A DNA stretch of 55,461 nucleotides from a virus: positions 1-55,461 of the IMG/VR virus record IMGVR_UViG_3300031653_000002. One strand, 5' to 3'. Position 1 is the stretch's first letter, and each line of letters opens with the position of its first letter. Positions 2,469-20,482 of this stretch are shown piece after piece. The notes under the pieces are model-generated. The model did not search any database. It saw nothing but the letters and a program-made list of their open reading frames with translations, and had not been told where the DNA came from. A program made the position numbers and the translations under genes.

Positions 2469-2581
2469 TGAAATCTATACTGAGCTTTATACTGGGAATA
2501 GCCTTAACCAAGATAGGTTGGCTGAAAATATGGTATGGAATTATTTTCCTTACTAACGAAATTAAAGAACTTTTCTCTTGA
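2468..2581 (+). CDS. Tiny membrane protein (37 aa)
   Basis: The TAATG overlap with the previous gene and one hydrophobic stretch over most of the first 30 residues suggest a single-pass membrane peptide. Its stop overlaps the -35 box of the small-RNA promoter at 2578. Function is unknown. Confidence 0.5.
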   Translation: MKSILSFILGIALTKIGWLKIWYGIIFLTNEIKELFS

Positions 2582-2606
2582 CTAATATGGACAAATCTGC
2601 TATAAT
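2578..2606 (+). promoter_or_regulatory. Sigma-70 promoter of the small RNA
   Basis: TTGACT at 2578-2583, a 17-base spacer and a perfect TATAAT at 2601-2606. Transcription should begin near 2612-2614, which is exactly the 5' arm of the RNA closing stem. Confidence 0.88.
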
Positions 2607-2611
2607 AACAT

Positions 2612-2755
2612 TATGGAAGAACGATAACACGACTATCGGCATGAGTGCCAAACAAATAAAGGTTCGGATCGCTATTGTCTTCCATAGCAATTATAACATG
2701 ACCTCCGCAGATGGGGGTGGCTTTAGCAGTAGCTTCTGTTGCCCCCTTCTTTTTT
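2612..2755 (+). ncRNA. Structured small RNA, about 145 nt, unknown family
   Basis: The segment has a consensus promoter at its 5' edge and an intrinsic terminator at its 3' edge, and no convincing ORF. Its 5' end TATGGAAGA (2612-2620) pairs perfectly with TCTTCCATA (2678-2686). Inside that stem are hairpins CGATA/TATCG (2623-2638) and GGCA-TGAG-TGCC (2638-2649). A copy of the CCTCCGCA motif lies between the closing stem and the terminator. The design is that of an independent regulatory RNA and not of an untranslated leader. I do not recognise a known class. Confidence 0.75.
2713..2755 (+). terminator. Intrinsic terminator of the small RNA
   Basis: GGGGGTGGC (2713-2721) pairs with GTTGCCCCC (2738-2746), using two G-U pairs, and is followed by TTCTTTTTT. 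Confidence 0.85.
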
Positions 2756-2772: not shown

Positions 2773-3012
2773 ATGAGTGGTGCAATTCGTAAATTCAGGA
2801 AATCGCTTGGGAAAGATAAGCCCGTTATAATGATTCTCGGCGATGAGCAACAGACATTTCGGTTGGCGTCAAACAGGATATTCGATAAAATCGGAGAACA
2901 CGTTATAACCGTTACAGATAAGAAGATTTATAATCGATTCCTTGAGGGCGTCCGCCAAGCCCAGGCAACCAAACAACATAACGTGAAGGAGTTCAACAAT
3001 GCGAAATCCTAA
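2773..3012 (+). CDS. Hypothetical protein (79 aa)
   Basis: A clear ribosome site (GAAAGGAAACC) precedes the ATG just downstream of the small-RNA terminator. The product is a small basic alpha/beta protein with no recognised motif. It overlaps the next gene by 14 bases. A role in DNA metabolism is inferred from position only. Confidence 0.65.
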   Translation: MSGAIRKFRKSLGKDKPVIMILGDEQQTFRLASNRIFDKIGEHVITVTDKKIYNRFLEGVRQAQATKQHNVKEFNNAKS

Positions 3013-3325
3013 TAAAGGGGCATCCGAAGAAGTTCTGCGGAGGTTCAAAGAGGAAAGCTATGAACGATTCCGAATCGAATTATTCAACTCTGTAAAGGCA
3101 TTGATGGATGAATTCGATATGACATGGGACGACTTAGCCGAATCTTTGAAATGGGTTAAGTATCGTGGCGAGACCGTTCCTGTCGAGTATTATAGCGGGG
3201 ACGAAGTTATGAGTATTATCGGTGCGGGGAAAATCGATGATAGAAGGCTGAACGAAATAGCTCATTGTTTCTCTGCGGAGTGTTACTTGATATTCCGTCC
3301 CCGTCCTCCCTATACAAAAACATAA
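2999..3325 (+). CDS. Helix-turn-helix (XRE-like) protein
   Basis: The 108 aa product contains a likely HTH: MTWDDLAESLKW at about residue 40 followed by a recognition-helix region ending in DRRLNEIAHCF near 85. Such Cro-like domains bind operators. It lies directly upstream of the promoter at 3334, so it could control that promoter or the small RNA upstream. The fold call rests on pattern and not on strong identity. Confidence 0.6.
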   Translation: MRNPNKGASEEVLRRFKEESYERFRIELFNSVKALMDEFDMTWDDLAESLKWVKYRGETVPVEYYSGDEVMSIIGAGKIDDRRLNEIAHCFSAECYLIFRPRPPYTKT

Positions 3326-3333
3326 TTTTTCCC

Positions 3334-3362
3334 TTGACTTTACTTTCACGATTTGGTATAAT
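3334..3362 (+). promoter_or_regulatory. Sigma-70 promoter for the recombination operon
   Basis: TTGACT, a 17-base spacer, then TATAAT at 3357-3362. The first gene downstream starts at 3389 after a GAAAGGAAAAAG ribosome site. Confidence 0.87.
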
Positions 3363-11749: not shown

Positions 11750-11794
11750 CCTCCGCAGGGTATATCGACTTATTCTGCGGAGGCTTCCCTTTTT
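11750..11794 (+). terminator. Intrinsic terminator built from two inverted copies of the iterated motif
   Basis: CCTCCGCAG (11750-11758) and CTGCGGAGG (11775-11783) form a 9-bp stem with a 16-base loop, followed by CTTCCCTTTTT. Using an iterated motif pair as a terminator stem recalls the pairing of DNA-uptake sequences in some bacteria. Confidence 0.75.
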
Positions 11795-18959: not shown

Positions 18960-20318
18960 CTATGGGAGATAATCTCTTGCCTCTGCCCCGGACTTAAATT
19001 TAAGCCCATTGTAAACATAATACCTACTATCCCTACCGCCCATTCTCCGCTTCGTCGCCTTCGGGAACTGTCTTGCTACTTCCTTCCCGAATGTCTTGCT
19101 TGACATCACCATATACCCGTTATCCCGCCCCCACTTTTTATAGGTATCATATACCGTCTTGGTCCTTACCCCAAAGTGGTACGATTCATCCCACTCATAG
19201 CTCTCCGCGAGAAACATAGCCGCAGGGTTCGATTCCTCCTTATACGCTTCCCACAGCTTCTGACTGGCATCGGCTATCACAAACCTGCGATTAGCTTTCA
19301 AATCCTTCAATCCCTCAATAGCCCAGTTCAATATCCCCGGCAACTCCTCAATAAGCTTATTATCCAAATAAGGATCAACAATACTCGTATCTACCCTATT
19401 AAAAGGCACAACTACCAATCTCCTCCACGTACCCATGCTCTTATCGGTAAAACTGGGGAAATCATTCGACAAAATCAACAGCTTCGCCGTAGCCTCCGCG
19501 GTGAATCCATGCCCCCACTTCCTCTCATAATCAACGCCATCCTTACCCGTCCAAGCCTTAATTATAGCCTCAACCTGCGGAGTCAATTCCTGCTCGGCAT
19601 CTCCGGCCACATTCAATTTCTTCCCATACGTCATATACAACGCAAATTTATCGACGAACCTCCGCAGGGGCACATCGCTACAATTCTCTTTTCCGAGCAT
19701 AGCCTTCATTACCCTGGCAAACGTACTCTTTCCCGTAGCGGCTTCTCCCTTGAGTAGCAGGAAAGACTCATACTCCTGCGTAGGAATCAACAGGTATCCC
19801 GCCCATTGCTGCAACGTCCGTCGCAACTGAGCATCCTCCATCGTAACCTCATCCACGAATTTCATCCACTTGGGACACTCTGCGGAGGGATCGTACCCAT
19901 AGGGCATTTTATTAAGGGCAAAGAAGTCCGGGGTATTCTTTTGTATTTTGGTCTCTCCATTATCTTCAAACGTCACAATCGATTTATTCGTTACAATCGA
20001 ATTCTGAGGCTCGTTGTTGTCCCTAAACCACGTATCCGGCAATCTCTCACTCACGACATTGGATAATGCCTTCAAATTAAGCATGACATTCTCTATCAGG
20101 CTGGTCGAGCACTCCACCGATAATCCCGCAATATATCTAACCAATAGGGCTTTAAGGTCATCTTTCCCCCTCTTTCGGAATATCCCATCATCCCAGAAGT
20201 AGAAATCCTCACGCCAATATATCATAGACCTCTTACGGTCGTCTCCCCAGTCTATATGTCCAATTTCCATATAGAAAGAGTATGCAATCTCCGCCGGACT
20301 TGGTTTCCTCTCAGCCAT
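18960..20318 (-). CDS. SF3 replicative helicase / primase C-terminal protein (D5/P4 type)
   Basis: The 452 aa product has the superfamily 3 motor: Walker A GEAATGKST (191-199), Walker B-like KLNVAGDAEQE (234-244), the sensor strand KLLILSNDFP (279-288) and an arginine finger GTWRRL (296-301). A D5-type N-terminal region precedes it and a winged-helix end follows. The ATG at 20318 has GAGGAAAGAACTA in front; the upstream TTG at 20342 is rejected. It is the only minus-strand gene and reads away from its own promoter at 20455-20482 toward the iterons at its 3' side. It should load at the origin and unwind DNA for the PolA enzyme. Confidence 0.9.
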   Translation of the reverse strand: MAERKPSPAEIAYSFYMEIGHIDWGDDRKRSMIYWREDFYFWDDGIFRKRGKDDLKALLVRYIAGLSVECSTSLIENVMLNLKALSNVVSERLPDTWFRDNNEPQNSIVTNKSIVTFEDNGETKIQKNTPDFFALNKMPYGYDPSAECPKWMKFVDEVTMEDAQLRRTLQQWAGYLLIPTQEYESFLLLKGEAATGKSTFARVMKAMLGKENCSDVPLRRFVDKFALYMTYGKKLNVAGDAEQELTPQVEAIIKAWTGKDGVDYERKWGHGFTAEATAKLLILSNDFPSFTDKSMGTWRRLVVVPFNRVDTSIVDPYLDNKLIEELPGILNWAIEGLKDLKANRRFVIADASQKLWEAYKEESNPAAMFLAESYEWDESYHFGVRTKTVYDTYKKWGRDNGYMVMSSKTFGKEVARQFPKATKRRMGGRDSRYYVYNGLKFKSGAEARDYLP

Positions 20319-20342
20319 TAGTTCTTTCCTCTTGTTCCGCAA

Positions 20343-20448
20343 TCATTGTTTTAATAAAGCAGCGGGGGGCATAGAAAGATGAATTGGGAATGATTGCCAC
20401 CCCGCCGCACGGTTTTACGTTTTGGAATATTACAGTATTCATCTTTCT
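20343..20448 (-). promoter_or_regulatory. Structured 5' leader of the helicase mRNA, pseudoknot candidate
   Basis: AGAAAGATGAAT (reading the minus strand from about 20448) pairs perfectly over 12 bases with its complement near 20372-20383. The enclosed loop contains GCGGCGGGG, which can pair, with one G-U, to CCCCGCTGC just after the 3' arm. The two helices together form an H-type pseudoknot shortly before the start codon. This may be a riboswitch-like or autoregulatory element. Confidence 0.6.
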
Positions 20449-20454
20449 ATATAC

Positions 20455-20482
20455 ATTATACCATAAAGGCCGTTCATTTCAA
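20455..20482 (-). promoter_or_regulatory. Minus-strand promoter of the helicase gene
   Basis: On the minus strand TTGAAA (20482-20477), a 16-base spacer and TATAAT (20460-20455). The transcript would begin near 20448, at the first base of the leader stem. It diverges from the promoter at 20509. Confidence 0.78.

Follow-up and report, generated by a model that had tools for sequence, protein, structure and literature searches.

The window, the whole stretch of DNA analysed here, is an IMG/VR virus record of 55,461 bases that carries a terminase gene and, at its left end, genes for replication and recombination (DNA polymerase A, an ERCC4-type nuclease, a PD-(D/E)XK exonuclease and a Sak4-like AAA protein). 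The locus under study has a gene order common to its relatives: a nuclease gene, a promoter, an RNA, a terminator, a start codon, a small gene and an HTH-like gene. The phage is a member of an uncultured group. Among cultured phages the terminase found only distant matches, and neither the two nucleases (the exonuclease and the ERCC4 type) nor the DNA of the locus had a relative; a search of genome contigs gave none either.

The plus strand carries a sigma-70-type promoter at 2578–2606 (TTGACT and TATAAT separated by 17 positions, with the TG of an extended −10), which matches the consensus at 11 of 12 positions. Two sites in the window's first 6,000 positions reach this score, and the scan as a whole found 15 sites against 14.9 in shuffled sequence, that is, no excess. 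The other 11/12 site (3334–3362) lies before the exonuclease gene, where the untranslated leader is short and without such an RNA. A promoter-like site stands at the leader in all 15 members scored, 14 of them with the TG, when the best site is chosen in each, no control is run and L143 is left out.

Directly downstream, positions 2612–2755 (plus strand) encode a structured RNA whose terminated form would measure ~144 nt. Its computed folding energy is −42.2 kcal/mol, with z = −2.48 and equally good values in 3 of 200 shuffles. Its closing stem, P1, joins 2612–2620 to 2678–2686 in nine perfect pairs read from the sequence, with pair probabilities of up to 1.0. Within it, hand reading of alignments places P2 at 2630–2666 (2630–2633 with 2662–2666, a variable loop inside) and an unpaired, conserved AUAAAG at 2656–2661, directly 5′ of the P2 3′ strand. 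P1 is strong in the window and P2 weak (pair probability 0.04–0.08), P2 being clear in relatives such as L132. The RNA closes with an intrinsic terminator (2709–2755), a hairpin at 2709–2750 plus a U-run, built from a 3-bp foot, one unpaired base, a 9-bp stem, an internal loop, 3 bp and a tetraloop; from the foot through to the internal loop it is conserved in most members. A preliminary description of this DNA had read a consensus promoter, an intrinsic terminator and a structured RNA of about 145 nt here; all three stand, and the RNA is conserved in relatives. The two inner hairpins that it also named belong to the minimum-energy fold of the window, whereas the conserved inner structure is the 4–5 bp helix P2 beside unpaired AUAAAG. 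Its statement that the transcript holds no ORF fails literally, as a 38-codon frame (2641–2757) crosses the RNA, but holds in that this frame has no Shine-Dalgarno sequence and is not common to relatives. A coding reading was rejected: long frames occur in the window and in L002, but the relatives have no frame in common that carries a ribosome site.

Viral contigs yielded 4 loci in a search with the exonuclease protein, 19 with an ERCC4 nuclease alignment and 15 with an exonuclease alignment. Of the 19 contigs reached through the upstream ERCC4 nuclease alone, 18 have the element in this position; the remaining contig, L129, ends before the site. One DNA pattern scan added at least two new members (L072 and L097) beside known ones, and a further scan returned 28 stretches, the genuine matches among them all lying in records already known. 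Once near-identical copies were set aside, 16 distinct sequences remained, none more than 75% identical to its nearest neighbour. Most share the promoter-like site, P1 (its sequence differing, its pairing kept), a short P2 next to the unpaired AUAAAG, a linker (rich in U in the majority), CUCCGCA, the terminator hairpin, a Shine-Dalgarno-like sequence and the start codon. The P1/P2 domain is present in 14 of the 16; L004 and L143 are without it and keep the 9-mer, of which CUCCGCA is part, and the terminator. Across the 16 members the mean folding z is −2.4 for the P1/P2 part and −4.4 for the terminator part, against −0.24 for neighbouring control stretches.

The element is a conserved structured RNA with covariation beyond shuffled and slid controls. 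A covariance model built from three members (L142, L147 and L097) recovered every one of the 17 loci to which it was applied (E ≤2.2e-5), including 14 that had no part in its construction (L130 being a near copy of L128); the window copy scored E 1.4e-5 to 4.5e-6. In the 16-row alignment, which was fitted to the model and therefore favours the structure, 96.1% of pair cells are standard, compared with 68.0% after shuffling and 42–57% with slid partners. Both sides change in 25 of 29 pairs, and the covariation score of 0.646 was reached by none of 500 shuffles (0.192 in shuffles). Compensatory changes in the stem 2612–2620/2678–2686, anticipated in the preliminary description together with a covariance model search in related phages, are found in the equivalent helix, which is 94.9% paired with both-side changes in 8 of 9 pairs; P2 is 97.5% paired. 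The window, L139, L072, L004 and L143 align poorly in the P1/P2 part, and since the window's P1 is not aligned there, it rests on hand reading and pair probabilities. Weak model matches at L177:476-376, L304 and L305 were interpreted as 9-mer copies near hairpins rather than as members. This well-covarying leader RNA family is undescribed as far as Rfam and literature searches show: against Rfam release 15, the window gave 0 matches at the gathering score, L001, L003, L004, L005, L072 and L097 gave one unrelated weak match away from the element at E up to 3, and the literature matches listed included no report of the leader RNA. Its covariance model can be used to find this phage group in other data.

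Behind the terminator come a Shine-Dalgarno-like GAAAGG (2761–2766) and a 79-aa ORF (2773–3012, plus strand), aligned with relatives and weakly matching phrog_31934 (E 2e-4); this first gene differs in L132, L139, L147 and L143. The HTH-like gene that the preliminary description had placed next to the RNA, with early replication genes on the other side, is there, in second place. It encodes a 108-aa likely Cro/cI-type protein (2999–3325, plus strand), an assignment that draws on the structure predicted by AlphaFold2 (mean pLDDT 82) and on Foldseek matches that include ClgR, DdrO and 434 Cro, with a best E of 0.035, none below 0.001 and other folds with such a domain ranking beside the regulators.

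The spacing between U-run and downstream start codon is 16–29 nt in 14 of 16 members, 13 of these 14 with a Shine-Dalgarno-like sequence; in L128 and L142 the first ORF to qualify by rule begins at 70 and 94 nt, with nearer start codons visible. Because such a gap leaves no room for another promoter, expression of the next gene requires passage through the terminator, whether transcription begins at this promoter or at one further upstream, and this makes a cis-acting leader the simpler interpretation. This layout speaks against the independent transcript of the preliminary description, and nothing was found to favour any one of the antisense, decoy or RNA-polymerase roles that it had offered. 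A terminator between promoter and first gene is the order of an attenuator leader, judged here by sequence only. No conserved antiterminator emerged: exchanging the terminator arms weakened their computed pairing with the upstream RNA only slightly (172 of 5,000 permutations were as good as the native combination; 440 of 5,000 for the linker). The candidate pairing of CCUCC with the terminator arm was rejected as a conserved antiterminator, being possible in most members, weak in L126/L128 and small in cognate signal. A switch, if there is one, may therefore need a protein or ligand.

Between the P1/P2 domain and the terminator, in fixed place and orientation, stands CCTCCGCAG (2702–2710, plus strand); all 16 distinct members have its CTCCGCA. 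This CCTCCGCAG is one copy of a 9-mer found throughout the genome: the window holds 38 copies against 0.22 expected (685 per Mb), 16 and 22 on the two strands. Related records carry it on both strands without exception (13 of 13), the reversed word used as control being nearly absent; a strong excess on both strands is what uptake sequences display. Copies within coding genes are mostly private to one phage: in three genes compared across 7 members, 26 copies occupy 17 places, and the most shared place is common to 5 of the 7. Neighbouring copies in the window and the three records whose copy places are fully listed alternate in orientation (113 of 166 against 84 by chance; 0 of 5,000 shuffles as high), although taken singly neither the window nor G001 is significant. 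In the same set, facing (convergent) pairs lie a median of 417 bp apart and back-to-back (divergent) pairs 1,251 bp (Mann–Whitney p 3e-8), these phages being related and the statistics thus not fully independent. Among the bacterial genome matches listed none had such a 9-mer density, 10 genomes being counted and none coming near, and the literature matches listed for the 9-mer included none on phages. Two further observations concern repeated words in the window: at 11750–11794 two 9-mers form an inverted pair with a distance of 25 bp, and the terminator-like CTTCCCTTTTT comes after them; the 10-mer CATAGGACAC/GTGTCCTATG occurs in 7 copies where 0.06 are expected.

A distant relative, L324 (L324–L327, record G014), was found through the HTH-like gene; a search with its own gene for more relatives returned itself alone. 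Its record has no CCTCCGCAG and instead contains GCCCCGCAG 29 times, the expectation being 0.27. At the place that corresponds to the leader (L324 position 2610; covariance model E 0.012), GCCCCGCAG stands ahead of a hairpin. The 8-mer core of GCCCCGCAG in G014 alternates in orientation in 21 of 31 neighbours (217 of 5,000 shuffles as high), and its spacing medians of 801 and 1,912 bp follow the same trend (p 0.011). From this one relative and single event, the leader 9-mer appears to change with the genome-wide dialect. An exposed motif that would follow a genome-wide repeat dialect makes both the control of the operon and the reader of the repeat testable. The HTH protein was considered as that reader; members sharing one 9-mer differ in its likely recognition region, which speaks against the role and is not a test of it.

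We give a probability of roughly 0.5 to the element being a cis-acting 5′ leader with a premature terminator, an attenuator, for a small operon that includes the likely Cro/cI-type gene. Transcription would start near 2612, and the nascent RNA would fold into P1/P2 with AUAAAG unpaired; the CUCCGCA stretch would be exposed next, before polymerase reached the intrinsic terminator. Most transcripts would then stop near 2755, and the ORF at 2773 and the HTH-like ORF at 2999 would be expressed by read-through, their level set by terminator efficiency. Candidates for what alters that efficiency include a protein, of phage or host, that recognises the 9-mer as RNA or DNA, a ligand of P1/P2 and plain leakiness. 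We prefer a cis-acting leader on account of the start-codon spacing and of a second copy of the module of 9-mer plus terminator in the L005 record (L303, 1294–1401, minus strand; model E 1.5e-7), which again has the position of a leader, with a promoter-like site before it and a primase-like gene after it, and is without the AUAAAG domain. The gene order common to relatives, the covariation in both domains and the folded leader of the window's primase-like gene favour this reading too; counting against it are the lack of a conserved antiterminator, the two members without P1/P2, the differing first genes and the wider gaps scored in L128 and L142. Transcription attenuators, terminator riboswitches and protein-binding leaders such as the B. 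subtilis rplJL leader (described in PMC4538822) have the same succession of promoter, folded leader, intrinsic terminator, ribosome-binding site and gene; the present case differs in that no conserved antiterminator was found, no ligand or protein is known and the operon belongs to a phage.

The exposed CUCCGCA in 16 of 16 members and the strong terminator-like hairpin would also suit a stand-alone sRNA acting in trans, a terminated 144-nt RNA whose CUCCGCA, held between two folded domains, pairs with UGCGGAG in messages. Gram-positive bacteria have sRNAs with C-rich motifs, RoxS/RsaE. We regard this reading as unlikely, given that the start codon hugs the terminator and that the 9-mer is similarly common on both genome strands and so not apparently selected as a message target. 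Doubtful, too, is a plain promoter and terminator set combined with a DNA-level 9-mer (an uptake, Chi or protein-binding site), in which the terminator insulates, the genes downstream are expressed by leakage and nothing is regulated. The joint change of leader and genome-wide 9-mer in the distant relative fits that arrangement, as does the frequent position of uptake sequences at terminators (PMC2397512), but it leaves unexplained the covarying P1/P2 domain of 14 of 16 members and why the leader copy always points the same way. In HK022, putRNA antitermination works through the zinc-binding domain of the RNA polymerase beta′ subunit (PMC9378689). A put-like RNA that binds RNA polymerase on emerging and enables read-through of the terminator behind it would, like HK022 putL as described in PMC9378689, come just after the promoter with a folded domain before the terminator. 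We hold it highly improbable: no likeness in sequence or fold has been established, the P1/P2 domain is missing from L004 and L143 although both have the 9-mer and the terminator, and putRNA as presented in that source has two stems with defined bulges and acts on distant terminators. What the attenuator-like leader has in common with HK022 putRNA, likewise a phage leader with folded domains after its promoter, is position and otherwise nothing among the features given there (PMC9378689).

As described in PMC6776037 and PMC2397512, DNA uptake sequences resemble the 9-mer in being short, non-palindromic, present on both strands at hundreds per Mb, divided into group dialects and in some cases placed at terminators. 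Pasteurellaceae phages carry the uptake sequences of their hosts, in dialects, at up to ~750 per Mb (PMC6776037), and neisserial uptake sequences form inverted pairs in terminators (PMC2397512). What may set the present 9-mer apart is that convergent neighbours lie closer than divergent ones; among the bacterial genomes listed or counted, none came near its density. The account of Cluster A mycobacteriophage stoperators in PMC6550527 gives up to ~30 dispersed sites with a motif that differs between phages, a conserved site before the repressor gene and a Cas4-family gene nearby, where our locus has a PD-(D/E)XK gene. Stoperators, however, mainly keep one orientation relative to transcription (PMC6550527), whereas the 9-mer is alike on both strands: its copies split 16/22 while most predicted genes lie on one strand. 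That a single sequence-specific factor reads the 9-mer both across the genome, in facing pairs ~400 bp apart, and in the leader, where binding directly before the terminator would decide read-through into the HTH-like operon, strikes us as quite unlikely; if true, a single evolving 'dialect' would link a switch in transcription to the organisation of the genome, or to DNA exchange.

The primase-like gene of the window (18960–20342, minus strand) likewise has a leader (20309–20482, minus strand), in which a promoter-like site is followed by a folded RNA ending in a terminator-like hairpin. This leader forms a perfect stem of 14 bp; the 5′ arm of the terminator-like hairpin lies within the loop of that stem and the 3′ arm outside, a crossing arrangement. 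Not seen in L310, a similar layout in other sequence stands before the homologous primase-like gene in L303.
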